IMG/VR virus record: IMGVR_UViG_3300027917_000175
Location: 1-23,946 of that record
Source: a virus
Direction: 5' to 3' (one strand)
Length of the DNA: 23,946 nucleotides
Part shown: one piece after another, positions 1 through 22,216 of the stretch
How positions within the stretch are numbered: position 1 is the first letter of the stretch
Layout: the number at the start of each line of letters is the position of its first letter
The notes under the pieces: model-generated
The model's database searches: none
Told to the model about the DNA's origin: nothing
The model's input: only the letters and a program-made list of their open reading frames with translations
Made by a program: the position numbers and the translations under genes

Positions 1-3000
1 AGGGTGAACAGGGTATCCAGGGTGATCAAGGTATTCAGGGTGACCAAGGTATTCAAGGTTCCCAGGGTTCTCTAGGAACTAAGGGTGATCAAGGAGACCA
101 AGGTGTCCAAGGTGTCCAGGGTATTCAGGGTGATCAAGGTGTCCAAGGAGATCAAGGTATTCAGGGTGATCAAGGTGTTCAAGGTCTCCAGGGAGCCCAA
201 GGTAGAACTGGTAACCAAGGTGAACAAGGTATTCAAGGTGAACAAGGTATTCAGGGTGGACAAGGTGTTGGCGACCAGGGAACTCAGGGTCTCCAAGGTC
301 CACAAGCTAGTCAGGGTATTCAAGGCGAACAAGGTATCCAGGGGGCGGGAGACCAAGGTATTCAGGGTATCCAAGGCGAAGATGGTCCCCAAGGTCAGCA
401 AGGTATCCAAGGCGACGATGGAGTCCAGGGAGAACAAGGCATCCAAGGCGAAGATGGTCCTCAAGGCGAACAAGGTGTCCAGGGTGTCCAGGGTGATGAA
501 GGTCAACAGGGTGAACAGGGTATCCAGGGTGATCAAGGTATTCAGGGTGACCAAGGTATTCAGGGTGACCAAGGTATCCAGGGTGATAAAGGTGTTCAGG
601 GAGAAAGGGGATCTCAAGGATTAAGAGGTTTCCAAGGCGAACAAGGAGTACAAGGAACTGATGGAGACAGGGGAATCCAGGGCGTCCAAGGTACAGTTGG
701 TGTTAAAGGTAACCAAGGTCAGCAAGGTGTTCAGGGCATCCAGGGCGATCAAGGTGTACAGGGTGATCAAGGTGTTCAAGGTGTTCAGGGTGATCAAGGT
801 GTCCAAGGAGACCAGGGCGTCCAGGGTGATCAAGGTATCCAAGGTGAACAAGGTATTCAAGGTCGTCGTGGTAGAGACCTTATCATTATTGGATCTATCG
901 AGGACGTAACTCTAGGAGGAGTTCTAACAGAAACTTCTGGGGGAGATGCAGGTACTATCGATACGTTCACTGTTACATCTAATACAGGTACGTCTAACTT
1001 AGCAGCTGGTAGTTATACCGTACAAGTAGATGGAGACCTTGCTGGTCTCGGAGCAGATTTAAACTTTGATGTAGATGGTGTCGGTAATGTCTCAAACCTT
1101 GTCCTGTATCATGGTCTAGGATTTGTAGCAACAGAAACTGTTAGTATTACTGATACTGAATTAGGTGGTGTCGGTGGAACAGTTGCTATTACACTCACTG
1201 TAGATTCCACTTTTAATTATGCTAATATTGGCGATTACATTACTAATGAATTTGATGGTTTCCCTAATCCAGCAGCTACTTTTAACCAAGGTGTTATCGA
1301 TGAACTAACTGGTGATCTCTACATTCTTCAGTTAGATGAAGTTACTTGGTTAAACGTAGGTACTATTAAAGGTTTCCAAGGTCTTCAAGGCATCCAAGGT
1401 GATCAAGGTGTTCAAGGTGTTCAGGGTGACCAAGGTATCCAAGGAGACCAAGGTATTCAGGGTGATCAAGGTATCCAAGGAGACCAAGGTCCTCAAGGTG
1501 TCCAAGGAGATCAAGGTATCCAGGGTGATCAAGGTATTCAGGGTGATCAAGGTGTCCAGGGTGATCAAGGTGTTCAAGGAGACCAAGGTGTCCAGGGTGT
1601 CCAGGGTGATCAAGGAAACAGAGATGGTTTTCCTTATATCTTTAGTAATAATACAAACGTTTTTAATTTACCAGGCACTAACAATGTTAGGTTTGATGGA
1701 CCATCACCTGCTTCAACACAACTGATTGCTTTTGACAAACAGGATGTAAACACTGTTAATCTTATTGATTACTTCACTAGTTTTGATAATTATGGTATCA
1801 CTGGTAGTAGAGGTTTCTTAACTCTCCTCCCATACGATAATACTCAAAATGAGTATGCTGTATTCCAGGTAGAAGGTGTTACTAATGTTGGACCAAATGA
1901 TTATGTAAGAATTGATGTTGTATACATTGATGGTGTTAGTTTCCAACCCGGACAGCAAGTACATGTCACCTTTAGTCCAGCTGGTAACCAAGGTGTTCAA
2001 GGTATCCAAGGTGATCAAGGTGTTCAGGGTGACCAAGGTATCCAAGGAGACCAAGGTATTCAGGGTGATCAAGGTATCCAAGGTGATCAAGGTGTTCAGG
2101 GTGACCAAGGTATCCAAGGAGACCAAGGTATTCAGGGTGATCAAGGTGTCCAGGGTGATCAAGGTATTCAGGGTGATCAAGGTGTTCAGGGAACACAAGG
2201 CACTCAAGGTGATCAAGGCATCCAAGGAGATCAAGGTATTCAGGGTGATCAAGGTGTCCAAGGAGATCAAGGTATCCAGGGTGATGAAGGTCAACAGGGT
2301 ATCCAGGGAGACCAAGGTATTCAAGGTATTCAAGGCGATACAGGTAAGTCTCTAGTTATTATTGGTTCTGTAGTAGATGTAAACGGAACTATTGCTCAAG
2401 ATAGAGATGGTGTTGGATTCCCAGCAGCTGCTATCGGACCCAATCAACCAAATAATCTATTAAACTACGAATTTGTTACTAAACCAACTCAGTTCGGTCC
2501 ACCAGAAGATATAGCACTAGAGAACGAAGGTGTTATCGATATTGCTTCCGGTGACCTATGGGTATATGACGGATCTGGTACTTGGACTAATGTAGGTAAT
2601 ATTAAGGGCGATCAAGGTGTCCAAGGTGTCCAAGGAGATCAAGGTGTTCAAGGAGACCAAGGTGTCCAGGGTGTCCAGGGTGATGAAGGTCAACAGGGTA
2701 TCCAGGGAGACCAAGGTATTCAAGGTGAACTAGGTGTTCAAGGTCCAACAGGTAACTTTGGTGGTGCCACATTTGACTACACCTTTGATAGCGGAACAAC
2801 ATCTGTAGATCCAGGTTCTGGACGTTTAGCTTTAAACAATGCTACTCAAAATCTCGCTACAGAACTTTATATTAATGAAACTGATGACGCTTCTTCTAGC
2901 ATCGTTAACTTCTTAACTACAATTGCTTCTTCTACGTCTACTATTAAGGGTCAATTTAGAATTTCTGAAAATGGTAACTCAGCAAGATTTAAGTTCTTCT

Positions 3001-4340: not shown

Positions 4341-4350
4341 TCTATAAATC

Positions 4351-7323
4351 ATGGCAAGAAGAAAAGAAGAAAACTACGTATTCGACGCTAGTGCCAAGAC
4401 TGTAAAAATTCCTGGTCACTTAAATCTTAATGACCTACTAACGATTATCAACGTTACTACTAACACGGTAATCTATAGTGTTAGTGAAGAGGGAAAGGGA
4501 GCAACCAGGGAACATTCTCACCCACTTCTCGGAACAGATCCAGACTTCCCATGGTCTATTGATGGAGACTGTACATTTCTTTTAGATTATGACACTACTT
4601 CAATGAGCGATACGGATGTCTTGCTCATTCTCGTAGAAGACGAAAGAAAAGGTCTAACAGTAAGACCTTATGAAGCTGCCGTTGATAGTATCGAAAGAAT
4701 TAAAGTATCACAAGGTCAGAACCTAATTGATGCTGACTTTGAATATGGTCTTCAGGAATCCAAATGGCAAAACATTGGTTTTAACACAGGATATCCTTCT
4801 TTCTCCGAAGCAACAGGGTTACCTTTAGTTGTTAATAGTGTAGATACTGATGGAGCAAACCCTTCTACTATTACAGTTGTAGTACAAGCAGGACAAGCTT
4901 TAGCAGCAGGTACTCCAGTTATTGTTACTGGATTGACTGATGGCGCTGTCTTAGCAGAAGGAGCTTATATTGTAGCAACTTCCAATGGATCTACAACTTT
5001 TACGTATACAGCGAAAGCACAAGTAACAGGAACAAATTTAGAAACACCATATACATCTATTAGAGAAGCTTCTCTATTTGATGGTTCTAGTTTAGCTATT
5101 GATACTTATCAGGCAGATGCTAGTCCCGGTACAAATGTAACAGCTAGCTTTATTCAACCGCATGGTCTTTTCCCAGGTTCTCCATTCATCTTGATTGATG
5201 ATAGTGCTGGACAGCAAATTGCCGAAGGTCCATTCTTCGTAAATGAAGTAATTAATTCTACTTCATTTAAGTATGATACTGGAGTAACACAAGACGGATC
5301 TTTAGTGACAACTGGATTGTCAGTATATGCTATCACCAATGCTACGTTTACTCATAGACCTTTTGATGGGGGTGTGTTAATTAACTCCTTCTATCCGTTT
5401 GCTGGGTTAGAAGCAAAGAGACAAACAAAACGTTATTTCAGATATCAGTCAGGTAAAGGAATTAATTTCTCCACAGGTACATTATTCTGTCCTGTTTATG
5501 ACGTTTCCTCCGCTACTTATAATGGAACTAATATATCGGTGACTACAGATATCCCCCACGGATTTCAAATAGGTGTTAAGGTAGCTTTATCTGGTATCGA
5601 TACTACTGGTTATAATTCAGACATTACTGATTATAATTATACTTTGTATGAAGTTACTGGTATTACAGACAGTGATACTTTTACCATTGGAGACTTTGGC
5701 GTAGGCGGAGTTAACGATGGATTGAATACCGGTATTCCCACCGGAACTGCAGTTTTGGGTCTTGAACCAAAAGTAGTTGCTCAAGAATGGAGGGGGGCAG
5801 CAACTAGGGTTGGTATGTTTGACGATGCCAACGGAGCATACTGGGAATATGACGGAGACAAACTATATGCTGTTCTCAGAAATTCAACAATTCAAATAAC
5901 TGGAAGAGTAGATCTAACACAGGGTTCGAATGAAATTGTAGGAACTGGCACGAGGTTTGGAGAACAATTTGTAGCAGGAAATAAAGTACTAATTAAAGGT
6001 CAAGTCTACGAAATTACAGATGTAGAATCATCAACTGTAATGCATGTTAATCCAGCATATAGAGGAGTTTCAATTAATAATTCCAAGATTAGTGTAATCT
6101 CAGAAACTAGAGTACCTTCAGATGTTTTCAATACAGATACTATCAATGGGCATGGTCCTTCTGGATATAATTTACATATTGATAGGCTTCAAATGATGGG
6201 TATCCAGTGGAGTTGGTATGGTGCTGGATATGTTGATTTCCAAGTAAGAGGACCATTGGGTGAATGGATTACCGCTCACCGTATGGCAAATGCTAACTTC
6301 CAAACTGAAGCTTACATGAGATCTGGTAACTTACCAGCAAGATATGAAATTGTAACTTCGTGTAGACATAGTAAAGTTCTATCTAATCCATCAACAGGAA
6401 CAGGAACAGGTGTTATTCAAGTAAGGAATGCCGAGAAATTATTCCCACAATCAGGAAAATTATTAATCAAGAGTGTACAGGGTGGACTAGGTTTAGTCAG
6501 CGAAATTGTTGACTATAGTGGAATTAGTGGCAATGATGTTACACTAACCGGAAGAGGATCTAGTTATACTCGTTTTGTTAATGGATCAAATAGAACATTT
6601 AGTGGTATTACATCAGCTCAAGATCATCCACTAAACAGTTCTGTACAATTTATTGATGCTAATATTGCTCCTCAAATTTCTCACTGGGGTTCTGCCGTAA
6701 TCATGGATGGTGGATTTACAGAAGATACTGGATTTAGATTTACTACATCTAGATTTGGTGTTACTATTGCTGCCGGTTCATCAGACACAGTTCTACTCTT
6801 TAGACCTGCTCCGGCGGTGAGTAACACAATATCCGGAGAAGTAGGAGAAAGAGAATTAATTAATAGATCAAGAGTTAACCTATCCGCACTTGAAATTATT
6901 AACATTGGTGTTCCTAGAAGCGTAGGTCAGCAAATTATTATTGAACCTAGAAGTATTGAAGTTACTGGTATTCTAAACCCATCCAATGTTGATCCCACAG
7001 CAATATCTTGGTCACCAGCTAATGCTATTCCATATGCCGGTGGTGGTGTTCAAACAGGATACCAACCATCATTCTCTCAATATAATGCCCCAGCAGCATC
7101 AACTCTTAATTTAGAGGGAGGAGAGATTCTATTTAAATTCATTACGTCAGATGAAACATCATTCTTTGATGTTTCTAACGTTAAAGAATTACAGAACTCT
7201 ATTGTTGGTGGAAATGGTTTGTTCCCCAACGGACCAGAGATGATTGGTTTTGTAGTTACAAACAAATCATCGGAGGATACTGTAGTTGATGTTGTATTAT
7301 CTTGGAAGGAGGCACAGGCATAA
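4351..7323 (+). CDS. Large virion appendage protein, cassette copy 1 (990 aa)
   Basis: No enzymatic motif is recognised; this is a beta-rich, Gly/Thr/Ser-rich structural-type protein. It is a clear paralogue of the 1069-aa protein at 14916-18125: both carry LIDADFEYG, HRPFDGGV, GLEAKRQTK, FRYQSGKG, DTINGHGPSGYNL, NLPARYE, IMDGGF and LFRPAP in the same order. Three short modules of the pattern HG-L-x2-G-x5-G-x5-NG-x-F-x-V (about residues 161-228, 262-312 and 388-450) resemble the FCCH-like repeats often annotated in cyanophage tail proteins. Arg is mostly AGA/AGG. It starts 10 bases after the collagen-like gene, with a weak GGAG at 4332. The C-terminus (WKEAQA) carries the ribosome-binding site of the next gene. 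The role, probably tail fibre or baseplate-attached appendage, is inferred from context. Confidence 0.8.
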   Translation: MARRKEENYVFDASAKTVKIPGHLNLNDLLTIINVTTNTVIYSVSEEGKGATREHSHPLLGTDPDFPWSIDGDCTFLLDYDTTSMSDTDVLLILVEDERKGLTVRPYEAAVDSIERIKVSQGQNLIDADFEYGLQESKWQNIGFNTGYPSFSEATGLPLVVNSVDTDGANPSTITVVVQAGQALAAGTPVIVTGLTDGAVLAEGAYIVATSNGSTTFTYTAKAQVTGTNLETPYTSIREASLFDGSSLAIDTYQADASPGTNVTASFIQPHGLFPGSPFILIDDSAGQQIAEGPFFVNEVINSTSFKYDTGVTQDGSLVTTGLSVYAITNATFTHRPFDGGVLINSFYPFAGLEAKRQTKRYFRYQSGKGINFSTGTLFCPVYDVSSATYNGTNISVTTDIPHGFQIGVKVALSGIDTTGYNSDITDYNYTLYEVTGITDSDTFTIGDFGVGGVNDGLNTGIPTGTAVLGLEPKVVAQEWRGAATRVGMFDDANGAYWEYDGDKLYAVLRNSTIQITGRVDLTQGSNEIVGTGTRFGEQFVAGNKVLIKGQVYEITDVESSTVMHVNPAYRGVSINNSKISVISETRVPSDVFNTDTINGHGPSGYNLHIDRLQMMGIQWSWYGAGYVDFQVRGPLGEWITAHRMANANFQTEAYMRSGNLPARYEIVTSCRHSKVLSNPSTGTGTGVIQVRNAEKLFPQSGKLLIKSVQGGLGLVSEIVDYSGISGNDVTLTGRGSSYTRFVNGSNRTFSGITSAQDHPLNSSVQFIDANIAPQISHWGSAVIMDGGFTEDTGFRFTTSRFGVTIAAGSSDTVLLFRPAPAVSNTISGEVGERELINRSRVNLSALEIINIGVPRSVGQQIIIEPRSIEVTGILNPSNVDPTAISWSPANAIPYAGGGVQTGYQPSFSQYNAPAASTLNLEGGEILFKFITSDETSFFDVSNVKELQNSIVGGNGLFPNGPEMIGFVVTNKSSEDTVVDVVLSWKEAQA
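7306..7312 (+). promoter_or_regulatory. Ribosome-binding site inside the end of the upstream gene (AAGGAGG)
   Basis: A perfect AAGGAGG lies 10 bases before the ATG at 7323 and encodes Lys-Glu of the upstream WKEAQA tail. The TAATG junction (stop 7321-7323, start 7323-7325) suggests translational coupling. It decides the start at 7323 over the in-frame TTG at 7302. Confidence 0.85.
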
Positions 7324-8828
7324 TGGCTTTAACAAGAGCACAAATATTAAATCAACCAACTGTAGAAGATCCTAATCAGATCAGCGGTGGTTCTATTACT
7401 CTAAGGGATACTACAGCTACTCCAGTAGAAATTTCATTTAAAGTAGCAAATACACAATCTGATCCTTATAATATTACATTCCCATCTACTATCGGAACCC
7501 CTGGGTTTAGTGGATATGTAATGACGTTTAGTGAATCTAGTGGAGAAATTACAGGATCGTTTGGTCCTGTTGTTGCCACCGCTGCTGGTACGGACGGACA
7601 GATTCAGTTTAATAATGCCGGTGTTACGGGTGCTACATCCACCATTGTTTATGATGATACTAATTTAGTATTTGATTTACAGTACGATGGTGCTAACAAT
7701 CCATCATTTTTGAGATTTAGTGATGATGGAGCATCAAATTATGCTCAGTTCCAAGCACCTGCTGACATCACTAGAGATTATAGTATTACATTACCAGCAT
7801 TAGTTCCAGGAACTAGTAACAACACAGAAGCAGTTGGTTATGTACTTAAGATTGCCTCTCATAGTGATCAGTCAGTTGTAGGAGCAACAACAGCTGTACT
7901 AGAGTGGGGTCCACCATTAACAGGTGATAATGTTTCCCAGGGTCCAGCAGGAAACATCCAAACATCAGACAACACTGGTGGTTTCGAGGATAAAACTGCT
8001 GGCAACTATTTAATCTATAACACAAATACATTAAACTTCCAGAATACTGCCGGTGAGATTCAGATCAATGGAGAACTGCTTTTAAATAGCACCACTCTTG
8101 GATCTACAGTTTTGAACTCTAGTCTTACTTCTGTAGGAACATTAACTGCTTTGACCGTTAATGCTGGTATTCAAGTCAACAATAGCATCACCACTCCTAC
8201 AGATACTGACTTACTGTTGTCTCCAAATGGAACAGGTGATGTTATTATTACTGCTGAAGGAGCTGCCGGTAAAGTTGATTTCCAAGATGCTCAAGGCACT
8301 CCACGCACTATTGGCGTTACTGTTCCTGCTACTATTGGAACTCTTGGTTATAATATAACTTTACCAGCAGAAGTAACAACTCCAGGTGACATGGTAATGT
8401 CATTTGCCAGTGACTACTCTGCTTCCTACATTGATAATAGAAAAACTGTTAATCTTGTTATTGATGGTGGTAACGAAGTTATCCAAAACGAACCACATGG
8501 ATCGTTAAGATTTGACGGTGCTTATACTATAACTGATTGGTATATTCTTTCTACCTTCCCTTATAATGTTCCAGACTCATTTGATGTTGTTATCACAAAA
8601 GGAACGCTTGCCGAATTAACTGCCGGAACAGCTCCAAGTGCTTTCAGTGGAACTTTGTCACTATCAAATGCTAATGCTGCTTCGGGAGTTACTACGGGGT
8701 GGGTTAGCAATACAATTGCTGATGGTGATATTTTATACTTCGAAGTTCAAAATCACGCAGCAGCTCCAACAGGAACAGCAATTCAAGCAACTATTAGTCT
8801 GACATTAGTACCAACAGCATTGACATAA
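7323..8828 (+). CDS. Tail-fibre-like virion protein, cassette copy 1 (501 aa)
   Basis: Start chosen at ATG 7323 because of the strong Shine-Dalgarno and the TAATG overlap. The N-terminus (MALTRAQIL) matches the paralogue at 18125 (MTLSRGEIL). The middle has repeated phage-fibre segments such as YSITLPALVPG and a GTDGQIQFNNAG element that the paralogue shares as GSTGQLQYNNAG. The last ~120 residues form a predicted beta-sandwich (YTITDWYIL to LTLVPTALT) that pairs with YTLTAWTLI to LRLVPA in the paralogue. This C-terminal domain may be a receptor-binding head, but that is inference. No catalytic residues are seen. It lies between the 990-aa and 235-aa proteins and is probably assembled with them. 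Confidence 0.77.
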   Translation: MALTRAQILNQPTVEDPNQISGGSITLRDTTATPVEISFKVANTQSDPYNITFPSTIGTPGFSGYVMTFSESSGEITGSFGPVVATAAGTDGQIQFNNAGVTGATSTIVYDDTNLVFDLQYDGANNPSFLRFSDDGASNYAQFQAPADITRDYSITLPALVPGTSNNTEAVGYVLKIASHSDQSVVGATTAVLEWGPPLTGDNVSQGPAGNIQTSDNTGGFEDKTAGNYLIYNTNTLNFQNTAGEIQINGELLLNSTTLGSTVLNSSLTSVGTLTALTVNAGIQVNNSITTPTDTDLLLSPNGTGDVIITAEGAAGKVDFQDAQGTPRTIGVTVPATIGTLGYNITLPAEVTTPGDMVMSFASDYSASYIDNRKTVNLVIDGGNEVIQNEPHGSLRFDGAYTITDWYILSTFPYNVPDSFDVVITKGTLAELTAGTAPSAFSGTLSLSNANAASGVTTGWVSNTIADGDILYFEVQNHAAAPTGTAIQATISLTLVPTALT

Positions 8829-8829
8829 C

Positions 8830-9537
8830 ATGGCGTTTTACGTAGATTTAACTAACGTAGGTGAAAATAATTACAGACTGGTAAGACCAAATGGATTAGT
8901 AGATATCCTTGACTTTACTACAACTTCTGGTGGAGTAACTGGTATTGATATTAGAGACCCTATTGATCCGTATCCCCAGTCCGGAACACCGGATTCTACT
9001 GGTCCCGATACCACATTTCCTATTACATTTACTGATAATAGTCAACAAATTGTTTATAATGGAAATGGAAACTCAGAACCTACTGTTACTGTTGATTTTG
9101 AAAATTTAAATGAAGTGGGCACTGCTCAAGGGGGTCCTGGTTTTCTAGATCTAGGTGCCGGAAATATTAATATCTTTAGAGTTTTTCTTGATATTAGAAC
9201 CGAGACGGGATTAATTCCAGCTGGCAATAGTAACACTGTAACTTTTTCATTAAATTTAAGAAACCCAGGATCTTTAGTAAACATTGCTTCATCGGGAACT
9301 CTTTCATGTACTCCTGCTAGCGGAATTAATACTTACTTTTTTCAAACATCTTTAGCTGCAGGAGTCACTGGTGGATATTACGGTCCTAACGTACAGTTAA
9401 ATATTACTCAATTGAGTGGTGGTGCTGGTGGATCAAAAAACAGGAGAAATTATTTAAACATCTACGCTGTTGACTGGCAAGCAAATACTAGAGACTTAGA
9501 AGTTTATAGACGATTTAACCAATTTGTGGTAACATAA
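8830..9537 (+). CDS. Beta-sandwich virion protein, cassette copy 1 (235 aa)
   Basis: No named family is recognised. The protein is rich in Thr, Asn, Gly and alternating hydrophobic residues, and looks like an all-beta capsid/tail decoration or fibre tip. Its C-terminal half aligns with the 171-aa protein at 19427-19942: both have a segment on the pattern VxLxI-x-Q-x-GGG-x-G followed by N-[YW]-[LI]-x-I-x-A-[VI]-DW (about residues 207-216 here). It starts one base after the TAA of the previous gene, with no clear Shine-Dalgarno, so translation probably depends on the upstream ribosome. Its stop codon lies inside a late-promoter-like octamer. It has an extra ~65 residues near the N-terminus compared with the paralogue. 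Confidence 0.72.
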   Translation: MAFYVDLTNVGENNYRLVRPNGLVDILDFTTTSGGVTGIDIRDPIDPYPQSGTPDSTGPDTTFPITFTDNSQQIVYNGNGNSEPTVTVDFENLNEVGTAQGGPGFLDLGAGNINIFRVFLDIRTETGLIPAGNSNTVTFSLNLRNPGSLVNIASSGTLSCTPASGINTYFFQTSLAAGVTGGYYGPNVQLNITQLSGGAGGSKNRRNYLNIYAVDWQANTRDLEVYRRFNQFVVT

Positions 9538-9566: not shown

Positions 9567-10568
9567 ATGATTGAAAATTTTGCTAAATTAGCCATTGAGA
9601 ATGGTGGTGACATTACTCCATTAGTAGTTGACTCTAAGCATACCGGTGGATTAGGTCTTACCAATTGTTCTATTTTACCAATTAATGACAAGTTGTATGT
9701 CAATCTACGGAATGTAGAGTACACCTTGTTACATGCAGAAAAGGTAAAGTATGCTCATCCATGGGGTCCTGTAGTTTATGTACACCCAGAAGATGATTGG
9801 AAGCTTAGAACTAATAATTTTCTTGGTGTAATTAATGAAGATCTATCAGATTTTAATTACTATTCGAAAGTTGATACTTCTGAATTAGATAAAGACCCAC
9901 TGTGGGAATTTGTTGGTTTAGAGGACGCAAGAATCTGTCACTGGGATAATAAAGTGTTTCTGTCTGGTGTCAGAAGAGACACTACTACTAACGGTGTTGG
10001 TAGAATGGAGCTGTCTGAGATTGAAGAAGAGAATGGATCATTTAAAGAAATCTCTAGACAAAGACTACCAATTCCAGGAGAAGCAGTTCCTGATACAGGA
10101 AAATCCTACTGTGAGAAAAACTGGATGCCTGTTGTTGATTTACCTTACACATACGTAAAATGGTGTAATCCAGTAGAGGTCGTTAAATATAATCCTGAGA
10201 CTAAATTAACTGAACAAATTTATCTTGGAAAAAACAAATTAGATATTGATTTTGATTTTCGAGGTGGATCACAGGTAATTCCATATAAAGAAGATTATAG
10301 AATAGCTCTGTGTCACGTAACTAGTTTATTCAAGACAGAGACGGGAAGAAAGAATTGTACTTATAGACATCGTTTTATTGTTTTTGATAAAGATTGGAAT
10401 GTACATGGTTACTCTAAAGAGTTCAACTTTCTAGGAGGACATGTTGAATTTTCTTGTGGTATGTGTTTCCATGAAGGAAATTATTTAATTACTTTTGGTT
10501 TTCAAGATAACACATCATTCTTGCTAAGAGTACCAGAAACATTTTTTGATTCGTTTATTGAGGTTTGA
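9567..10568 (+). CDS. GH130/GH43-like beta-propeller protein, possible glycan-acting enzyme (333 aa)
   Basis: The spacing of motifs fits five-bladed propeller proteins of the GH130/GH43 type: GLEDARI (residues 117-123, compare the GxEDPR motif), EKNWMP (183-188), RGGSQ (232-236) and a closing FSCGM...ITFGFQDN (295-315), which resembles the F-x-[SC]-G-[ML]...YG-x-xD element of GH130 enzymes. It has no signal peptide and no membrane segment. GH130 proteins act on mannosides, but the catalytic Asp is not secure here, and related phage proteins are often left unassigned or listed with glycosyltransferases. It is followed after two bases by a TPR/methyltransferase gene, a pairing that suggests joint work on a surface or virion glycan. 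Function is inference; the fold assignment is moderately secure. Confidence 0.62.
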   Translation: MIENFAKLAIENGGDITPLVVDSKHTGGLGLTNCSILPINDKLYVNLRNVEYTLLHAEKVKYAHPWGPVVYVHPEDDWKLRTNNFLGVINEDLSDFNYYSKVDTSELDKDPLWEFVGLEDARICHWDNKVFLSGVRRDTTTNGVGRMELSEIEEENGSFKEISRQRLPIPGEAVPDTGKSYCEKNWMPVVDLPYTYVKWCNPVEVVKYNPETKLTEQIYLGKNKLDIDFDFRGGSQVIPYKEDYRIALCHVTSLFKTETGRKNCTYRHRFIVFDKDWNVHGYSKEFNFLGGHVEFSCGMCFHEGNYLITFGFQDNTSFLLRVPETFFDSFIEV

Positions 10569-10570
10569 TC

Positions 10571-11824
10571 ATGGATAAAAAATTTAAAGATGTTCTTTTA
10601 AAATTTGCAAAAGATCCAGAAGATGCCATGAATAATTTTGACTTGGCATATGAATATCACACTAGAGGACATACAGCTTCTGCTTTTAGTAACTACTTAA
10701 GATGTGCTGAAAGAGCAAAGGAAGATGAGTTAGCATATGAATCTTTGTGTAGGGCTTCCTATTGTTTTACCTCACAAAAAAGAAGAGAGTTTACATCTAA
10801 AGCTTTTCTAAAACATGCTCAGATTATTTTACCAAAGAGACCAGAAGCGTATTATCTTCTCGGCGTACATCATATGAATAGAAAAGAGTATGCTGAAGCT
10901 CATGTTCAGTTTACTCTAGCACTAGAATTCTGTGACTTTGATTGTAAACCGTTAATGACTTTTATTGGATATAAAAGTAAAGAACATCTCTTGTATCAAA
11001 AATCAAAAACAGCATGGTTCTGGGATAAAAACCACGAGACTAGACAAATTTTACGTGACCTAAGTGCTCCGGGAGTATGGGAAAAACTAGACGAAGAAGA
11101 TCAAAAAGCTGTACAAGATGACATCAATCGTATTGGTCTTCTTGTTGATAGTGATGCTTTTGTGAAGTACGAAGAAAAAGATTTCGTTAATCTAAAATAC
11201 AAGTTCCCCGATGCAGAAAAAATTAAAGAGAATAGATCTCAAGTCTTTCAAGACATGTTTGTTCTCTACATGACAGAGGGTAAGAAGAAAGGAACTTATT
11301 TCGAAATTGGATCTGGTCCTTCTCACTTCGGAAGTAACACTGTATTGTTAGAAGAATTTGGTTGGAAAGGTATTGGTGTTGAATCAAACCCAATTTATGT
11401 GAACGAGCATAAATCTAGAAGAAAAAATTTAGTTTTGTTTGATGATGCCCTAAAGCTTAACTACGAAAAAATATTGGATACTCATTTCGATACTACGGAG
11501 ATTGATTACCTTCAACTAGATATTGAACCAGCAATCAATACATTCCAATGTTTGATTTCTATTCCGTTTGAAAAATATAAATTCGGAGTTATCACATACG
11601 AACACGATGACTACATTGATTTTACTAGGTCTTTTAAAAATAAATCAAGAAGATATCTAAAATCTTATGGTTATGAACTGGTAGTTGCTGATGTATCTCC
11701 GGATGGAAAAAGCAGTTATGAAGATTGGTGGGTACATCCAGATTTAATAAATAGAGAAGTTATTGAATCGATTAAGTCCACAGACGGGACTATCAATATT
11801 AAACAATTAATGCTGAGTGAATAA
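10571..11824 (+). CDS. TPR domain fused to FkbM-type SAM-dependent methyltransferase (417 aa)
   Basis: The N-terminal ~125 residues are helical repeats of TPR type; the clearest unit is about residues 91-119 (AYYLLGVHHMNRKEYAEA). A linker follows, then a C-terminal methyltransferase of FkbM type from about residue 230: YFEIGSG (243-249) as the SAM-binding glycine loop, GVESNP (E271) as the acidic residue of motif II, and YLQLDIEP (D317-E319) as motif IV. FkbM-family enzymes O-methylate sugars or small molecules; here the substrate is unknown and the TPR may dock to a partner, perhaps the neighbouring propeller protein. Start chosen at ATG 10571 because GAGG at 10560-10563 is seven bases upstream; the in-frame TTG at 10565 overlaps the previous stop. 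It is soluble, with no signal peptide. Confidence 0.78.
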   Translation: MDKKFKDVLLKFAKDPEDAMNNFDLAYEYHTRGHTASAFSNYLRCAERAKEDELAYESLCRASYCFTSQKRREFTSKAFLKHAQIILPKRPEAYYLLGVHHMNRKEYAEAHVQFTLALEFCDFDCKPLMTFIGYKSKEHLLYQKSKTAWFWDKNHETRQILRDLSAPGVWEKLDEEDQKAVQDDINRIGLLVDSDAFVKYEEKDFVNLKYKFPDAEKIKENRSQVFQDMFVLYMTEGKKKGTYFEIGSGPSHFGSNTVLLEEFGWKGIGVESNPIYVNEHKSRRKNLVLFDDALKLNYEKILDTHFDTTEIDYLQLDIEPAINTFQCLISIPFEKYKFGVITYEHDDYIDFTRSFKNKSRRYLKSYGYELVVADVSPDGKSSYEDWWVHPDLINREVIESIKSTDGTINIKQLMLSE

Positions 11825-14391: not shown

Positions 14392-14904
14392 ATGGCAGCA
14401 CCAGTAGTACGGCTGAGAAGATCAGCCACACAAGGGGCAGTACCCACAACTGCTCAACTCGATTTAGGCGAGGTAGCAATTAATACTTTTGATGGGAAGA
14501 TTTTTCTCAAGAAAGACCAGAGTGGAACAGAAAGTATTGTAGAAGTATTAAGTGATAGCATTACAGAGTTTAGAATTCTGGATGATATCTCTAGTGGATT
14601 CAATGGAACCACAACTAACTTCACTCTGTCTTACAATTCAGGAACCAACTTTGTTAATACAGAGATTACGACAGCAGCAAGATTGCTAATCTCTGTTGGT
14701 GGTATTATTCAGGAACCATCAGCCACAAAAGGATTTACGATTTCTGGTGGTACTGATGCCACTACAGATCCACTTATAATTTCATTTGTAGAAGCTCCAG
14801 CAACGGGACAAACATTCTGGGGAATTGCTTTTGGTGCTTCTGCTGCTCCTACAACAGGTGGTATCAGTGAAGAACTAGCAATCGCTTATTCAATCGTATT
14901 TTGA
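14392..14904 (+). CDS. Short fibre protein, cassette copy 2, with GGIIQEP C-terminal domain (170 aa)
   Basis: Two parts. Residues 1-58 form an Mtd_N-like head (MAAPVVRLRRSATQG, then LDLGEVAINTFDGKIFLKK), similar to the start of the protein at 12713. Residues ~60-170 are homologous to the last ~120 residues of the collagen-like fibre: ARLLISVGGIIQEP, ISFVEAPATGQTFWGI and a final hydrophobic strand. It therefore occupies the same cassette position as the collagen-like gene but without any collagen. It starts 18 bases after the previous gene and is followed after 11 bases by the 1069-aa gene, with GAGG at 14903 serving that gene. Likely a short fibre or the adaptor base of one. Confidence 0.75.
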   Translation: MAAPVVRLRRSATQGAVPTTAQLDLGEVAINTFDGKIFLKKDQSGTESIVEVLSDSITEFRILDDISSGFNGTTTNFTLSYNSGTNFVNTEITTAARLLISVGGIIQEPSATKGFTISGGTDATTDPLIISFVEAPATGQTFWGIAFGASAAPTTGGISEELAIAYSIVF

Positions 14905-14915
14905 GGTATTAGATA

Positions 14916-17900
14916 ATGGCACAGATTAAAGAAGAACTATACAGATTTATTCCAGTAGATAACTCACTGGCAGCACCCAACACGGGTAAAGGTAGTATTA
15001 CGATTCCAGGTCACAGAGAGACTAGGAATGTAGTAATGATTGTAAATGCCACCCGTGGCGTTATTATTGCTAGTCAATTTGATCCTGCAAAAGGATGGAC
15101 TAGGGAACACGGGCACGTCTATCCAGGAGACCCGGATTATCCAGATCCATACTTTCCTTTTGCTCTAGATGGTACTTGTACTTATATTCTAGACTATGAC
15201 ACTTCACAGATGTCTCAAAGTGATCAGTTGTCAATTTATATTGATGACTACGTTCAAGGCGAAAAGATCCGTCCTTGGGATTTTGGAACGGATGCCATTG
15301 AACGTATGAGGGTGTCAAACCCTCAATCACTTATTGACGCTGACTTTGAGTATGGTATTCAAAATACTAAATGGCAAACATTTGGTTCTAATCGTAGAAA
15401 TCCTTCGTTCTATGAAGTTGCTGGTCCACCTCTAACAGTTAGTGCTATTTCTTCGGATGGTGGAACTCCATATTCGTTAGTTACAATTACAGTTGCTGCT
15501 GGAACTGGATTATCTGCTGGTACTCCAATTTCAGTTACTGGAACTACTGATGGTCTAGCTGATGGTCTATTTATTATTGAAAGTGATAATAGTCCAACTT
15601 TGAGTACATTCAGTTATAGAGCAAAAGGAGTAATTGCTTCTGGTTCTATTCTTACATCATATAATGTCGTAAAGAAAGGTGGTGTTTATACTGGTGCTGA
15701 ATTGCCAGTATCAGCTATTGCTTTAAACAATCCAAGTAATGGATTTGTTCAACTTACATTCTCAGAAGCACATTCTTTAGTTCCTGGTTCTCCTATTACT
15801 GTATTTGATACCGGAGGAAATACAGATTGGGCGGGTGTATTTTTTGCAAACAATATTGTATCACCTACAGTTATTCAGTATCAAGTTAATAATACAGCAA
15901 CGGCATTAACTGGCACTCCTACATTAGGGAACATTACGGTCTATGCTCGTAATGATAGCTTCTTTATTCATCGTCCATTTGATGGTGGTGTTTTTATGGG
16001 TCCGCTATTACCAGTTCATGGACTAGAAGCAAAACGCCAAACAAAGCAGTATTTTAGATATCAATCTGGTAAAGGTTTCCTATTCTCTACTGGTGCTTTA
16101 CTTAATCCAACATTTGACGTAACTTCAGTAACTTATAGTAGTGGAACTGGAGAAGTTACTATCACAACAGAATTTCCACACGCTTTACAAACTGGATCAA
16201 CTATTTTCCTAGAAGGTATTGCTAGCGATAATTATTATGGTTCATATATTGTCAAATCAATATCTTCCGATAAAGTATTTGTTGTTGATGCTTTATCCCC
16301 TGCTCCTACTGATACCACAGCTGTACTTGCTGAGCAACCTAGAATTACTGTAACTAACTGGACTGGTGCTGTTATTCGTACTGGTATGTTTGACGACCAG
16401 AATGGATTATATTGGGAGTATGACGGGCAGCAACTTTATGCCGTGAAGCGTTCCTCTACATTCCAACTTGCCGGAACGGTTTCACTTTCAAATGGTTCTA
16501 GAGTTGTTACTGGAACCAATACAAGATTTTTATCAGAACAATTACAGGTAAATGATCTTGTTGTTATTCGTGGTCAGTCGTATCGTATTACTGGTATTAC
16601 ATCAGATACTGCTTTAACTGTGTCTCCTGAAAATAGAGGGACAACAGCAACTAATGTTAAAATGTTAAAGACGATTGACGAAAGAGTTCCCCAAAAGAAC
16701 TTTAACTACGATACCATTAATGGGCACGGTCCTTCTGGATATAACCTTCGTTTATCACGAATGCAGATGTGGGGCATTCAATTCTCCTGGTATGGTGCTG
16801 GATTTTCTGACTTCCTAATTCGTGGTCCATTGGGATCATTTATTAAAACACATCGTGTTGCTAATCATAACGTAAATTTTGAAGCATATTTGAGATCAGC
16901 AAACTTACCAGCTCGTTATGAAGTTGATAATTGTTCTGCTTATGCAAGGATTTTGGTAGATACTGGAACAGGAACTTCCGATCTAATATTAAATCGTACT
17001 GGAAGATTTCCAGAACCAATTCCTGGATATCCAGGATACGTTTTACTTTCTGGTATTGAAAATGGTACTTCTACAATGCACCACGAAGTTATTACATATA
17101 CAGGAAAGAGTTCAGAAAATATTGTAACTCAAGGTGATAATTATGTTGTTGGTGAATTTGTTGAAGCAGCAGATAGTAATGGTTTTGTTATTGAAGTTAC
17201 TTCAGTAACTGATACTGGTGGTATTGCTAGCTATAGACTTTTCACTGGAGGAACTGGATATAGTACTGGTAATGTAACAATGAGTGTTGCTGCCGCTAGT
17301 GGAACAACTGCTGCTGTAATCAATGTGACTTCAGTTTCCAGTGGAGCAGTAACTTCTGGTCCAGGAAGACCAGCTTTAACTGGTATTACTAGAGCACAAT
17401 CTTATAGTCAGTTCATTGCGGGTCAAACAAGAACATTCCAAGCAGAAACTACAGCAGTCAATTTTGATGCTGGTTCTACTGCTATGTTATTGAATACCAC
17501 ATTCTCCCCAACCATTTCACACTGGGGTTCATCTGTAATTATGGATGGTGGATTTGATAAAGACTTAGGTTTCTTATTTAACTATTCCGTGAGTGGTGTA
17601 ACGGTGAATGGAAACACTGGTTCTACCCTACTTCTATTCCGTCCCGCTCCTTCAGTTTCAAATACATTACCAGGAGAATTTGGAGAAAGAGAGGTTGTAA
17701 ATCGTTCTCAAATTACACTCAAAAATATTGAAGTTAATAATATTACTGGTAGAGAATATCAAATTTATGCTATCGTTAATCCATCAAATATTGGAGCAGC
17801 GACTTGGGTTAATGCTAATGTTCAGACAGTTGGCACAGCATCTCTTTTCCAACCATCATTTGCTCAGGTTGCAACTCAGGGTGGTACTTTAGTTGGAACA

Positions 17901-18125
17901 ACAAATGATCCGATAGATGGAGAAATCCTATTCCAGTTTATTGGTACATCAGCTGGTTCTGAGACATTTGATCTCACTGGTTTAAAAGAAGTTCAAAACT
18001 CAATTATTTCTGGACCAGGAACATTTCCTGATGGTCCAGAAACAATTGCTCTCTACATTGTAAATAATAACAACCAGTCGGGTGACTTTGATATTGTTCT
18101 TTCTTGGACGGAGGCACAGGCATAA
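14916..18125 (+). CDS. Large virion appendage protein, cassette copy 2 (1069 aa)
   Basis: Paralogue of the 990-aa protein at 4351 along nearly its full length: LIDADFEYG, HRPFDGGV, GLEAKRQTK, DTINGHGPSGYNL, RGPLG, NLPARYE, SHWGSSVIMDGGF and LLLFRPAPSVSNT recur in order. FCCH-like modules lie at about residues 176-245, 268-325 and 403-455, followed by a GT-x-VxGTNTRF segment. Unlike copy 1, it has an insert at about residues 735-815 (GDNYVVGEF, then GGTGYSTGNV) of a type also seen in gp13 and gp14. Arg is largely CGT, whereas copy 1 uses AGA. It ends in WTEAQA, which encodes the next gene's ribosome-binding site. The role, tail appendage or fibre base, is inferred. Confidence 0.8.
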   Translation: MAQIKEELYRFIPVDNSLAAPNTGKGSITIPGHRETRNVVMIVNATRGVIIASQFDPAKGWTREHGHVYPGDPDYPDPYFPFALDGTCTYILDYDTSQMSQSDQLSIYIDDYVQGEKIRPWDFGTDAIERMRVSNPQSLIDADFEYGIQNTKWQTFGSNRRNPSFYEVAGPPLTVSAISSDGGTPYSLVTITVAAGTGLSAGTPISVTGTTDGLADGLFIIESDNSPTLSTFSYRAKGVIASGSILTSYNVVKKGGVYTGAELPVSAIALNNPSNGFVQLTFSEAHSLVPGSPITVFDTGGNTDWAGVFFANNIVSPTVIQYQVNNTATALTGTPTLGNITVYARNDSFFIHRPFDGGVFMGPLLPVHGLEAKRQTKQYFRYQSGKGFLFSTGALLNPTFDVTSVTYSSGTGEVTITTEFPHALQTGSTIFLEGIASDNYYGSYIVKSISSDKVFVVDALSPAPTDTTAVLAEQPRITVTNWTGAVIRTGMFDDQNGLYWEYDGQQLYAVKRSSTFQLAGTVSLSNGSRVVTGTNTRFLSEQLQVNDLVVIRGQSYRITGITSDTALTVSPENRGTTATNVKMLKTIDERVPQKNFNYDTINGHGPSGYNLRLSRMQMWGIQFSWYGAGFSDFLIRGPLGSFIKTHRVANHNVNFEAYLRSANLPARYEVDNCSAYARILVDTGTGTSDLILNRTGRFPEPIPGYPGYVLLSGIENGTSTMHHEVITYTGKSSENIVTQGDNYVVGEFVEAADSNGFVIEVTSVTDTGGIASYRLFTGGTGYSTGNVTMSVAAASGTTAAVINVTSVSSGAVTSGPGRPALTGITRAQSYSQFIAGQTRTFQAETTAVNFDAGSTAMLLNTTFSPTISHWGSSVIMDGGFDKDLGFLFNYSVSGVTVNGNTGSTLLLFRPAPSVSNTLPGEFGEREVVNRSQITLKNIEVNNITGREYQIYAIVNPSNIGAATWVNANVQTVGTASLFQPSFAQVATQGGTLVGTTNDPIDGEILFQFIGTSAGSETFDLTGLKEVQNSIISGPGTFPDGPETIALYIVNNNNQSGDFDIVLSWTEAQA
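18110..18114 (+). promoter_or_regulatory. Ribosome-binding site inside the end of the upstream gene (GGAGG)
   Basis: GGAGG ends 10 bases before the ATG at 18125, the same spacing and the same place in the EAQA tail codons as at 7306-7312. The TAATG junction (TAA 18123-18125) is also identical. It decides the start against the in-frame TTG at 18104. Confidence 0.82.
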
Positions 18126-19420
18126 TGACATTATCTAGAGGCGAAATTTTAACAGATCCTGTTGTTAGGGGCGTTAGTACAAGTGGTGCCAAAATTAAAT
18201 TGGAGGATGGAGATGAGAGTGCTTATGTCCAACTAGCATCTCCTGATGTTGTAACGACATCATACACTCTCACTTTACCAGCTGATGCTGGAACGAGTGG
18301 ATATGTATTACAAACCAATGGATCTGGGACTACTACTTGGCAACCAGTTACAGCATCACCTGCTGGTAGCACAGGACAACTTCAGTATAACAATGCTGGT
18401 TCATTGGGTGGAACATCAGGTATTACCACTGATGGTTCTAATCTACTGATTGATAGTCAGGGTGATTTAAGAATGGGAGATGGTACAAACTATCTTGCTT
18501 TCCAAGCACCTGCTTCAATTGGTGCTGATAGAACATATACCCTACCATCTACGATTGGTTCAGCAGGAGACCAATTATTGATTGCTACTTCTCCTACACC
18601 AACAGCAACAGCTGCTACATTGGTTTGGGGTACGGCAACAGGAACTACACAATCTCCTGGTGGTGATACCGATGGTTCCGTTCAATACAATAGTGCCACT
18701 GTATTTACTGGTGAGACAGCATTCAAATACAATGATAGCACCAATACATTAACTGTAGAGAATATAACTGGAACTGGAACATTTACTTCAGGTTCTGTAG
18801 TTGTAGATAACATCACCATCGACGCCAACTCTATCACGGCAACAAATACAAATGGCAATGTAGATCTTGCTGCTGATGGCACTGGAGATGTAAGAGTATT
18901 ATCTAACAAACCATTAAGTTTGATGGATAGTGATAATAGCGATGGCGTTAGTTTAATTGCTGATCCAACTACCACAGCATATACTCTTACATTCCCGGCA
19001 TCAATTGGAGCAGAAAATGAAGTTCTAAAGATTGATGCCACAGGCAATCTTGACTTTGTATCTAATGTAAGAACTCTCAACTTTGCCATTGGTGATGGTA
19101 GTGGTTCTGTTACAACTGGTGTTAAAGGTCACGTTGTAGTTGATGCTGACTATACTCTCACTGCTTGGACTTTGATTGGTCAGACAACTGGTGCATTTAA
19201 CGTGACTGTATCTAGTATTTCTCCGGGTGCATATCCTCTCACATCTGTCCCGACTTATACCAGCATTGTAACGCCATCAATGACAACTGGACAATACGCT
19301 ACACAAACAACAGGATTATCAATTAGTATTTCTGCTGGTGATGTGTTGGAATTTGATGTTACAGCAAATGCTGGATCACATACTTTTGCTACTGTAGCAC
19401 TTCGTTTAGTACCCGCTTGA
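18125..19420 (+). CDS. Tail-fibre-like virion protein, cassette copy 2 (431 aa)
   Basis: Paralogue of the 501-aa protein at 7323, about 70 residues shorter. Shared landmarks in order: MTLSRGEIL at the start, YTLTLPADAGTSGYVLQTN, GSTGQLQYNNAG, NYLAFQAPASIGADRTYTLP, GNVDLAADGTGDVRV and the C-terminal beta-sandwich from RTLNFAIGDG to LRLVPA. The start at ATG 18125 is fixed by the TAATG junction. The YTLTLPAD element is also in the 476-aa protein at 12713, so three proteins of this window draw on the same fibre-repeat stock. The C-terminal domain is a candidate receptor-binding part. Confidence 0.76.
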   Translation: MTLSRGEILTDPVVRGVSTSGAKIKLEDGDESAYVQLASPDVVTTSYTLTLPADAGTSGYVLQTNGSGTTTWQPVTASPAGSTGQLQYNNAGSLGGTSGITTDGSNLLIDSQGDLRMGDGTNYLAFQAPASIGADRTYTLPSTIGSAGDQLLIATSPTPTATAATLVWGTATGTTQSPGGDTDGSVQYNSATVFTGETAFKYNDSTNTLTVENITGTGTFTSGSVVVDNITIDANSITATNTNGNVDLAADGTGDVRVLSNKPLSLMDSDNSDGVSLIADPTTTAYTLTFPASIGAENEVLKIDATGNLDFVSNVRTLNFAIGDGSGSVTTGVKGHVVVDADYTLTAWTLIGQTTGAFNVTVSSISPGAYPLTSVPTYTSIVTPSMTTGQYATQTTGLSISISAGDVLEFDVTANAGSHTFATVALRLVPA

Positions 19421-19426
19421 TAAATT

Positions 19427-19942
19427 ATGGCAACTGAAGTTTTAATTCCCGATGCTATCACAACACAGGTAAGTTTATCGGGAGCATTGACTGATATCGA
19501 TGAAGGAACAACTTCACCTGATGCTAACTGGTTAACAAATACTGAAAACAATGGAAATACTAACGAATTAATTGTTACTTTTCCAACTCCATCAGGTACA
19601 TTGAATTCTGGAGCTGATCTTCAAACTATTCGTGTATGGATTCGTAAAACTGGAACCAACAACCCACAATATGCTTTATCCGTACTAGAAAATGGAACAC
19701 CGGTTGCAACTACTAACCTGACTGTAGCTTCAACAACAGGCGAACTTGATAGTTTTACTTGGAATGCTGGAAATTTGGCAAATGCTGACGGGGCTGGTGT
19801 TGAGGTTCGTATTTTACAAACTGGTGGTGGAACGGGAAGAGCTGCTAATCGAAGTTGGATTGAGATAGGGGCAATTGATTGGGTTGCTGATTATACGGTT
19901 CCTGTTGGTGGGGCAGCAGTGTCTCAAGCAATCTTCATCTGA
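19427..19942 (+). CDS. Beta-sandwich virion protein, cassette copy 2 (171 aa)
   Basis: Closes cassette 2 just as the 235-aa protein closes cassette 1. The two align in the C-terminal half: VEVRILQTGGGTG, then RSWIEIGAIDW (about residues 142-152). It is all-beta by composition, with no cysteine-rich, enzymatic or membrane features. It starts six bases after the previous stop, without a Shine-Dalgarno, so reinitiation is likely. Its TGA stop overlaps a GATAAATA motif that precedes gp13. Family unknown; probably a tip or decoration protein. Confidence 0.7.
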   Translation: MATEVLIPDAITTQVSLSGALTDIDEGTTSPDANWLTNTENNGNTNELIVTFPTPSGTLNSGADLQTIRVWIRKTGTNNPQYALSVLENGTPVATTNLTVASTTGELDSFTWNAGNLANADGAGVEVRILQTGGGTGRAANRSWIEIGAIDWVADYTVPVGGAAVSQAIFI

Positions 19943-19948
19943 TAAATA
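19941..19948 (+). promoter_or_regulatory. Late-promoter-like octamer GATAAATA before the neck genes
   Basis: Seven of eight bases match the T4 late consensus. It overlaps the TGA stop (19940-19942) and ends 20 bases before gp13. It would drive gp13-gp14-gp15-gp16. Confidence 0.65.
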
Positions 19949-19968
19949 CTTAAAAATAGGTTGCAAGG

Positions 19969-21042
19969 ATGGCACAACCCTCAACCCGTGTAGAGTTCAC
20001 GGACTACTGCTTAAGGAAACTGGGAGCACCAGTATTAGAAATTAACGTTGACGATGGTCAAGTTGATGATTTAATCGACGATGCTATTCAGTTGTATCAA
20101 GAATACCATTTTGATGGCGTAGAGAGGATGCTACTCAAGCACAAAATTACACTAGATGATGTAGAAAGATTTACCCGATCAGAATATATTGATACAGCAA
20201 CAGGAACATCAGGTGGAGTTACATATACAGTATCTTCTACGGGAATTGGATACGCTACAGGTGCTCAGGAAAATGTAGCTACAACTAATACAACAGGATC
20301 TGGTTCTGGGTTAACAGTTAATATTGTTGCCAATGGAGCTGGACAACTGACCGAAGTTATTATTAATTCTCAAGGCGAAGATTATGTAGTTGGTGATGTT
20401 CTTACTATTGGAACAAATGGTTCTGGATCTATCACTATTGACTCTGTTGAAAGTGATTCTAGATGGCAGAACAGAGGAAACTATTTACCTATTCCAGACC
20501 ACGTTGTTGGTATCTCCAAAGTATATGGAGTTTCTTCTGGTCTTTCTGATAATGAGATGTGGGGATTCTCTAATCAGTTTTTCTTAATGGATGTATTTTC
20601 ATTTAACTCTGGTTATACATTCTCCAACTTTGATATGTCTTACTTCTTTATGATCAAACAATGGTTTGAGACTTTAGATATGGTTATCAATACTGGAAAC
20701 TTAGTACAGTATAGATTTAATAAAAAACAAGATCAATTATTCTTAGATATTGCTACTGATAGACCTAAAGTAGGAGATTGGATTCTAATTGATTGTTACA
20801 GAGCATTAGATCCGTCTCAGTGGTCACAGGTATGGAATGATAGTTGGTTGAAGAAATATGTTCCAGCTTTAATCAAAAGGCAGTGGGGACAAAATATGAT
20901 TAAGTTTAACGGAGTACAACTTCCTGGCGGCATTACTATGAATGGTCGTCAATTATATGAAGATGCAGAGAAAGAAATTTCTATGCTAGAAGCGAAGCTA
21001 CGTGATGAGTATCAACTTCCACCTCTAGACATGATCGGATAA
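19969..21042 (+). CDS. 13: T4 gp13-like neck protein with an inserted beta domain (357 aa)
   Basis: In T4, gp13 forms a ring below the portal and, with gp14, completes the head before tail joining. Recognised by its N-terminus (FTDYCLRKLGAPVLEINV, then VDDLIDDAIQLYQEYHFDG) and the C-terminal ring helix with WVKKY-like SWLKKYVPALIKRQWGQN, LPGGITMNGRQLYEDAEKE and LRDEYQLPP. T4 gp13 has 309 residues; the excess is an insert at about residues 75-163, Gly/Thr-rich and containing GEDYVVGDVLTIG, after which the conserved part resumes at YLPIPDHVVGISKVYG. It opens the neck/packaging group and is followed after one base by gp14. Confidence 0.88.
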   Translation: MAQPSTRVEFTDYCLRKLGAPVLEINVDDGQVDDLIDDAIQLYQEYHFDGVERMLLKHKITLDDVERFTRSEYIDTATGTSGGVTYTVSSTGIGYATGAQENVATTNTTGSGSGLTVNIVANGAGQLTEVIINSQGEDYVVGDVLTIGTNGSGSITIDSVESDSRWQNRGNYLPIPDHVVGISKVYGVSSGLSDNEMWGFSNQFFLMDVFSFNSGYTFSNFDMSYFFMIKQWFETLDMVINTGNLVQYRFNKKQDQLFLDIATDRPKVGDWILIDCYRALDPSQWSQVWNDSWLKKYVPALIKRQWGQNMIKFNGVQLPGGITMNGRQLYEDAEKEISMLEAKLRDEYQLPPLDMIG

Positions 21043-21043
21043 A

Positions 21044-22216
21044 ATGCCTACAAGTCATTACTTTCCTCAAAACTATAAGAATAATAGTAGCGAGACAAAT
21101 TTAATTCAAGATCTAGTTGATGAGCAAATTAAATTGTTCGGAACAGATGTCTATTATATTAATAGAAAAGCTTACATCGAAGATTTTAGTAACGACATTG
21201 TTTACTCCGAGTTTAAAGATAAAATTGTAATTGAAGCTATGCTTCAAAATGTAGAGGGTTTCGGACCTCAATCAGAATTTATTTCTAAGTTTGGTCTAAG
21301 AGTTACAGATGAAATTACAATGACTTTATCTGCCAGAAGGTGGGATGAAGAAAAATTTAGATTGCCTGGTATTGAGATTATATCTAGACCAAACGAAGGG
21401 GATTTAATTTATCTACCTTTGACTGGTGATTTATATGAGATTAAGTTTGTAGAAAGAGAAATGCCTTTCTATCAACTAGGAAAGATTTATTTCTACACAA
21501 TGACATGTGAAATCTATCAGGTTGGCAATGATGATATCGAGACTGGTATTGATGAGATTGACTTTATTGAGTCACAGAAAGATCAGTCACTAACTCTTGT
21601 TCTAACCGAGGGCGGAACAGGAAATTACTATGTTGGCGATACTGTTGAATATCACACAGTAACAGAGGTTAGTGGTAGTCCTGTTTATACAGCGACTGGT
21701 ATTACAGCAGAAGTTGCTGGATGGGAAGGACCAACCAGAACTCTCAAGCTTATTAATGCCACTGGTAGTCACGCTAATAACTATGCTGTACTGGCACAAG
21801 GATATCCAACACAGACTACCGAGACTGATGGTATATACACCATCGGAACACAAGAAACAACATGGAGAAATGAAGGTAGATATCCTAAGAATGATACTTA
21901 TACTTTGATTGATACAGTTGCTGATGTTAATGTCACATACAACGGTGGTCTCGGAGGACCCGACGATCCTGCTGGATATCTAAACTTTACATTCCCAGCA
22001 AGAACATTCGACGATGCTGTATTTGATGAAGCTACAGAAACATTCTGGATCTATCGTGAGAGATATCTTGCTGACGCTGTTGATTTAGTTGAGATGGAAA
22101 ACACAAGTTCAGAATTTGAAGATAATAAATATATTGAAGACGCTGCGGATGGCTTCCTTGATTTCACTGAGACTAATCCATTTGGCGAATATGGTAATAT
22201 TGGGAATGACTTTTAA
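21044..22216 (+). CDS. 14: T4 gp14-like neck protein, enlarged (390 aa)
   Basis: gp14 binds gp13 to complete the neck. The N-terminal ~180 residues carry the family signature: LIQDLVDEQIKLFGTDVYYI, a VYSEFKD segment, FGPQSEFISKFGLRV, RRWDEEKF, RPNEGDLIYLPLTGDLYEI and FYQLGKIYFYTMTCE. The extreme C-terminus (FLDFTETNPFGEYG) is also typical. T4 gp14 has about 256 residues; about 160 extra residues (roughly 183-345) are inserted, beginning at LTEGGTGNYYVGDTV, which resembles the insert in gp13. The gene begins one base after the gp13 stop, and its TAA overlaps the gp15 ATG. Confidence 0.87.
   Translation: MPTSHYFPQNYKNNSSETNLIQDLVDEQIKLFGTDVYYINRKAYIEDFSNDIVYSEFKDKIVIEAMLQNVEGFGPQSEFISKFGLRVTDEITMTLSARRWDEEKFRLPGIEIISRPNEGDLIYLPLTGDLYEIKFVEREMPFYQLGKIYFYTMTCEIYQVGNDDIETGIDEIDFIESQKDQSLTLVLTEGGTGNYYVGDTVEYHTVTEVSGSPVYTATGITAEVAGWEGPTRTLKLINATGSHANNYAVLAQGYPTQTTETDGIYTIGTQETTWRNEGRYPKNDTYTLIDTVADVNVTYNGGLGGPDDPAGYLNFTFPARTFDDAVFDEATETFWIYRERYLADAVDLVEMENTSSEFEDNKYIEDAADGFLDFTETNPFGEYGNIGNDF

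Follow-up and report, generated by a model that had tools for sequence, protein, structure and literature searches.

The contractile-tailed phage T4 provides the best described counterparts of the proteins considered here. In T4 gp13, a helix bundle lines the channel and a swing domain (residues 52-192) forms a peripheral ring; in the virion, the anchor of this domain (90-157) clasps the portal and gp23, whereas fibritin is bound by domain III (190-239) (PMC12270204). Domain III, with the fibritin whiskers, is an extra gp13 domain that decorates the neck, as the insert of the marine gp13 described below may do, but the two differ in both site and sequence. In the T4 sheath protein, gp18, domain I projects from the surface; it takes no part in contacts within the sheath and is the binding site of the retracted long tail fibres (PMC3004832). 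Added domains are also documented in other phage sheaths (PMC9230969), as are outer beta domains in adaptors (PMC12886913). The adaptor and the stopper of Staphylococcus phage 812 both have extra beta domains, and that of the adaptor faces outwards from the neck, as is proposed here for gp13; however, the phage 812 domain is described as a beta-sandwich and not a GxGY module (PMC12886913).

More generally, small beta domains are documented to be shared among phage structural proteins, those of the neck included, and RIFT-related and Ig-like modules have been shuffled such that one beta module recurs across virion parts (PMC10684548; Fraser 2006 cited there), which is likewise the pattern seen here. 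The passages found in that text mention neither the gp13 swing-domain site nor the sharing of a module between sheath and neck, and in a limited literature search no paper was found to describe a module of the sheath type within the swing domain of gp13.

Inserts in the neck adaptor and in an appendage protein

The window, that is, the whole stretch of DNA analysed, is a 23,946-base virus contig from a marine T4-like phage (Kyanoviridae-type); among named phages, Synechococcus myoviruses and Marine virus AG-345-P14 are the nearest to it. The genes for gp13, gp14, gp15 and the terminase small subunit lie at its 3' end. The features relevant to this analysis are as follows.

4351..7323, plus strand: 990-aa paralogue of the 1069-aa protein, lacking the insert (alignment of the two)
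14916..18125, plus strand: 1069-aa appendage or virion structural protein (phrog_5838, E 2e-220; paralogue of the 990-aa protein)
17115..17375, plus strand: insert in the 1069-aa protein, residues 734-820 (missing from the 990-aa paralogue; profile matches)
19969..21042, plus strand: gp13, neck head-tail adaptor (Ad2), 357 aa (phrog_211, E 3.3e-42; T4 gp13 in PDB, E 1e-21; VIA-align Z 15.8 to T4 gp13)
20191..20463, plus strand: GxGY/GD beta-barrel insert in gp13, residues 75-165 (no counterpart in the gp13 of S-PM2 or S-CAM3; profile match to the sheath module)
20212-20454, plus strand: compact part of the gp13 insert in the AF2 model, residues 82-162
21044..22216, plus strand: gp14, neck head-closure protein (Hc2), 390 aa (phrog_460, E 2e-85; Pfam T4_neck-protein, E 9e-22)
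21584..21853, plus strand: gp14 C-terminal 'GxFxxGExVTG..SGxTAxV..W' domain, residues 181-270 (found in S-PM2, S-CAM3, L007-L011 and others)
21854..22078, plus strand: 75-aa gp14 stretch, residues 271-345 (a gap in L007, L089 and L091, the closest relatives; present in L087)

The core of the window gp13 is homologous to T4 gp13, as indicated by the PHROG, PDB and VIA-align matches. Compared with the 276-aa gp13s of S-PM2 and S-CAM3, it contains about 85 extra residues between 'DDVERF' and 'WQNRGNYLPIPD', so that the insert postulated in an earlier note on this DNA is real and spans residues 75-165. That note had also pointed out that T4 gp13 and gp14 are shorter, which they are (309 and 256 aa); insert-free cyanophage homologues provide the fairer reference for length. 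Among 81 non-redundant gp13s, 70 have no domain in the respective loop of the swing domain, six have an insert of the window type (found in the clade of the window, in AG-345-P14 and in L008/L009), and five have another insert, of about 120 aa, which is the type present in S-CAM9 and S-8S56 (Kanaloavirus-type) and is an unrelated domain occupying the same loop. On the tree of the gp13 core, the distribution of the insert is patchy and requires at least three changes, by gain or loss. Gp13s of the Kanaloavirus type, with an 'HGL.TG...' insert, are encoded in L004:8001-9119, L005:8001-9122, L012, L013, L015, L019 and L050, and the phages with this insert have gp14s of about 480-660 aa.

In the 1069-aa protein, residues 734-820 split a conserved stretch, between 'EVITYTGKSS' and 'LTGITRAQ', which is uninterrupted in the 990-aa paralogue, S-CAM3, AG-345-P14 and most relatives; the insert recurs in L158-L161, and its family comprises few distinct sequences. 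The alignment thus agrees with the earlier proposal on both counts, the insert in this protein and its lack in the paralogue.

The two paralogues belong to a four-gene appendage cassette that is present twice in the same order (window 3-9537 and 14392-19942). The counterparts are the C-terminus of a 1445-aa protein and a 170-aa protein (39%, E 2e-13), the 990- and 1069-aa proteins (38% identity), proteins of 508 and 438 aa (29%, E 9e-32), and proteins of 235 and 171 aa (40% over 35 aa, E 5e-4); the barrel insert occurs in one cassette copy only. The 1445-aa protein (window 3-4340), whose gene is open at the 5' end of the contig, is a collagen-like fibre protein in which non-collagen domains are interspersed between blocks of GxQGxQG repeats. 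Between the cassettes (window 9567-11824) lie two non-structural-looking genes, for a 333-aa protein assigned to no family and for a protein of about 417 aa that matches TPR weakly and has a methyltransferase-like C-terminal sequence.

A beta-barrel module in neck, appendage and sheath proteins

The two inserts are linked to each other and to the contractile sheath by profile-profile comparison. The gp13 insert matches the insert of the 1069-aa protein with P 3.9e-6 over 59 columns, the cyanophage sheath module with P 1.6e-16 and the gp14 repeats of other phages with P 2.4e-6, and in each case none of 60 column shuffles reaches the observed score. The 1069-aa insert matches the sheath module as well (P 4.6e-5, 0/60 shuffles), although this link is far stronger for the gp13 insert. 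Column shuffles being a potentially lenient control, we additionally moved the sheath profile along the proteins of the window (174 segments) and scored reversed sequences for comparison; gp13 and the 1069-aa insert are the only segments to rise above these (32.2 against a reversed-sequence maximum of 17.3). Conceivably, the likeness of the two inserts might reflect convergence of glycine/threonine-rich sequences rather than common origin, as the non-significant BLAST comparison between them (E 0.058) and the failure of iterated HMM searches with gp13 inserts to recover the 1069-aa insert, the link to which is seen only by profile-profile comparison, could suggest. We consider convergence improbable, given that the profile match covers both half-repeats and beats all shuffles, and that the 1069-aa insert is the only segment besides gp13 that the sheath profile raises above the reversed sequences. 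When either insert was used as a lone query, tblastn against 50,697 phage records gave no matches, the divergence of the module being too great for a search with one sequence. A 476-aa protein that scored 26 with the gp13-insert profile over about 30 columns gained no support from the sheath profile and was set aside as a carrier.

An HMM of the gp13 insert detects the sheath proteins of S-CAM3 and AG-345-P14 (E ~1e-19), gp14s and large structural proteins; the 107 domains recovered at this threshold include no decoy, and the PHROGs matched by members of the module include baseplate wedge, head closure, tail fibre and head decoration proteins. Thus, the proposed spread of one domain among virion proteins was upheld, for gp13, the 1069-aa protein, the sheath and the gp14 of other phages. 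Among the sheath proteins, the module is carried by those of S-CAM3, S-CAM1 and AG-345-P14, where it follows the N-terminal sheath domain and, as with the inserts of the window, is cleanly present or absent: sheaths with the module are about 807 aa long and close relatives without it about 655 aa. The half-repeat pattern is the same as in the gp13 insert, but the sheath contains about four half-repeats (~160 aa) and gp13 about two (~85 aa). The module tree is poorly supported and hints that different gp13 lineages have different nearest relatives, either sheath modules or gp14 repeats, which falls short of proving independent acquisition. A sheath gene with the barrel module also occurs in L234, from the same sample (3300021335) as L087, and is a candidate for the sheath gene of the window phage itself.

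The AF2 model of gp13 has a mean pLDDT of 69, and the insert is among its better-predicted parts (71-87 by blocks), with a compact structure of six strands at residues 84-160 flanked by low-confidence joints at residues 73-81 and 163-166; in the model, the insert is a compact domain on flexible joints. T4 gp18 domain I is a six-stranded beta-barrel inserted in a virion protein, as the gp13 insert is predicted to be, and a 'GxxYxVGDxhxV' stretch is common to both. VIA-align superimposes this domain (98-188) on gp13 residues 83-161 with Z 4.3 and rmsd 2.9 over 74 residues at 18% identity, a score tied with those of the unrelated barrels of EF-Tu and eIF2-gamma, and profile comparison gives a probability of 71%, over 25 columns only. 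PF22639 (Gp18_dom_I) is the commonest Pfam family among the members of the module, with six of 11 matching and the best E of 0.0042 below cut-off; the insert of the window gp13 itself scores 11.3 bits (E 0.36) against a curated cut-off of 27 bits. Searches of Pfam and NCBIfam identified no trusted domain in the insert, and a PDB profile search returned chance-level matches only, T4 gp18 among them at E 1.3-1.8. A YbaB match (E 0.004) covering 37 residues in one of 11 members was rejected as chance. With these scores below the cut-offs, T4 gp18 domain I may be distantly related to the module.

The C-terminal part of gp14

The earlier note had counted gp14 residues ~183-345 as a further copy of the same insert. 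The comparison of the three segments joins those of gp13 and the 1069-aa protein and finds no significant similarity of the gp14 segment to either: its profile probability against the gp13 insert is 2.5%, BLAST against the inserts gives E 3.8, and it shows no match to the sheath module in profile comparison (8.7% over 22 columns). Residues ~181-270 form a domain that is also present in the related gp14s examined (S-PM2, S-CAM3, L007-L011); being native to these proteins, it does not represent an insertion. The additional stretch, residues 271-345, has been found so far only in the window and in the near-identical contig L087. In the gp14 model, residues 183-252 have pLDDT of about 70-80 and resemble a small barrel, different from that of gp13, and residues 271-345 are of low confidence. 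The matches of this model in Foldseek and VIA-align, to small barrels of baseplate proteins and translation factors (Z 5-6.6), were dismissed as a common arrangement rather than a relation.

Most other marine gp14s are about 470 aa long and contain 2-6 GxGY repeats ahead of the native C-terminal domain; the window gp14 has no such repeats. The related repeats in many gp14s, together with the glycine-, threonine- and valine-rich beta character of all three segments, could be taken to mean that the segments, that of the window gp14 included, constitute one domain family. We regard such a family as very unlikely, since neither profile comparison nor BLAST relates the gp14 segment of the window significantly to the inserts and its homologues sit in gp14s that lack such an insert.

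Position in the neck and possible functions

The gp13 insert aligns at about T4 residues 75-100, in the swing domain at the start of the anchor region, and marine gp13s are about 40 aa shorter in the stretch that holds T4 domain III, both alignments being uncertain in detail. Because the region of the insert is equivalent to the peripheral swing domain of T4, the insert is likely to face outwards from the ring rather than towards the channel. The alignment does not place the insert at the site of domain III (190-239), the part that binds fibritin in T4, so that the analogy with whiskers drawn in the earlier note is weak.

We propose, as the probable interpretation, that the inserts of gp13 and the 1069-aa protein are copies of a shuffled barrel module, that the gp13 copy serves as a docking or stabilising knob, and that the gp14 segment is a different, native domain. 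The module would be a beta-barrel of about 80 aa in which a half-repeat with the pattern G-x-G-Y-x-x-G-D-x-[LIV]-T-[IV] ... G-x-[ILV]-T-x-[VI]-x-[IV] occurs twice, its best exemplar being a module of the contractile sheath in related cyanophages. It would have entered a permissive loop of the gp13 swing domain, a peripheral part of the adaptor ring whose T4 counterpart flips up and clasps the portal and capsid. With the 12 copies of gp13 that are expected, 12 small barrels would surround the outside of the neck, both copy number and orientation being predictions. Since T4 gp18 domain I protrudes and binds the retracted fibres, we favour a lateral knob that would dock another protein or stabilise the particle, much as that domain does for the retracted long tail fibres and the baseplate; this docking role is what we infer by analogy.

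The main rival is that the gp13 insert acts as an additional swing-domain clasp against the portal and capsid, performing part of the job of the T4 anchor (residues 90-157). The insert indeed lies at the beginning of the region that touches the portal and gp23 in T4 (PMC12270204), and the outer beta-sandwich of the phage 812 adaptor touches the capsid (PMC12886913). We nevertheless consider a clasp somewhat unlikely, given that 70 of the 81 marine gp13s manage without any domain at this site and that the module also occurs in sheath and appendage proteins, where there is no capsid to clasp. Display of the module on the virion as a weak glycan-binding or adhesive domain would be in keeping with the beta-modules added to virion proteins, including neck passage proteins, which are sometimes carbohydrate-binding (PMC9230969; PMC10684548). 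This role also appears improbable: no carbohydrate-binding family was matched, and a neck fibre of cyanophage A-1(L) that has a carbohydrate-binding module showed no binding to the host (PMC10966104). An extension of the docking knob to a shared docking address, in which barrels on the neck ring, sheath, baseplate and appendages would be bound by one partner, such as a stowed long fibre, and the modules on the flank of the virion would provide marine T4-like phages with a track for parking fibres, is a speculation to which we assign only a small chance.

On the interpretation that we favour, the normally conserved adaptor ring of T4-like phages would possess, at its periphery, a permissive loop in which different domains can be accommodated, including one that also occurs in the sheath. 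The gp13 loop would offer a concrete site at which to study how marine phages decorate the neck and the tail with the same part, and its variable occupancy may help to explain the length variation of the neck proteins in abundant ocean phages.
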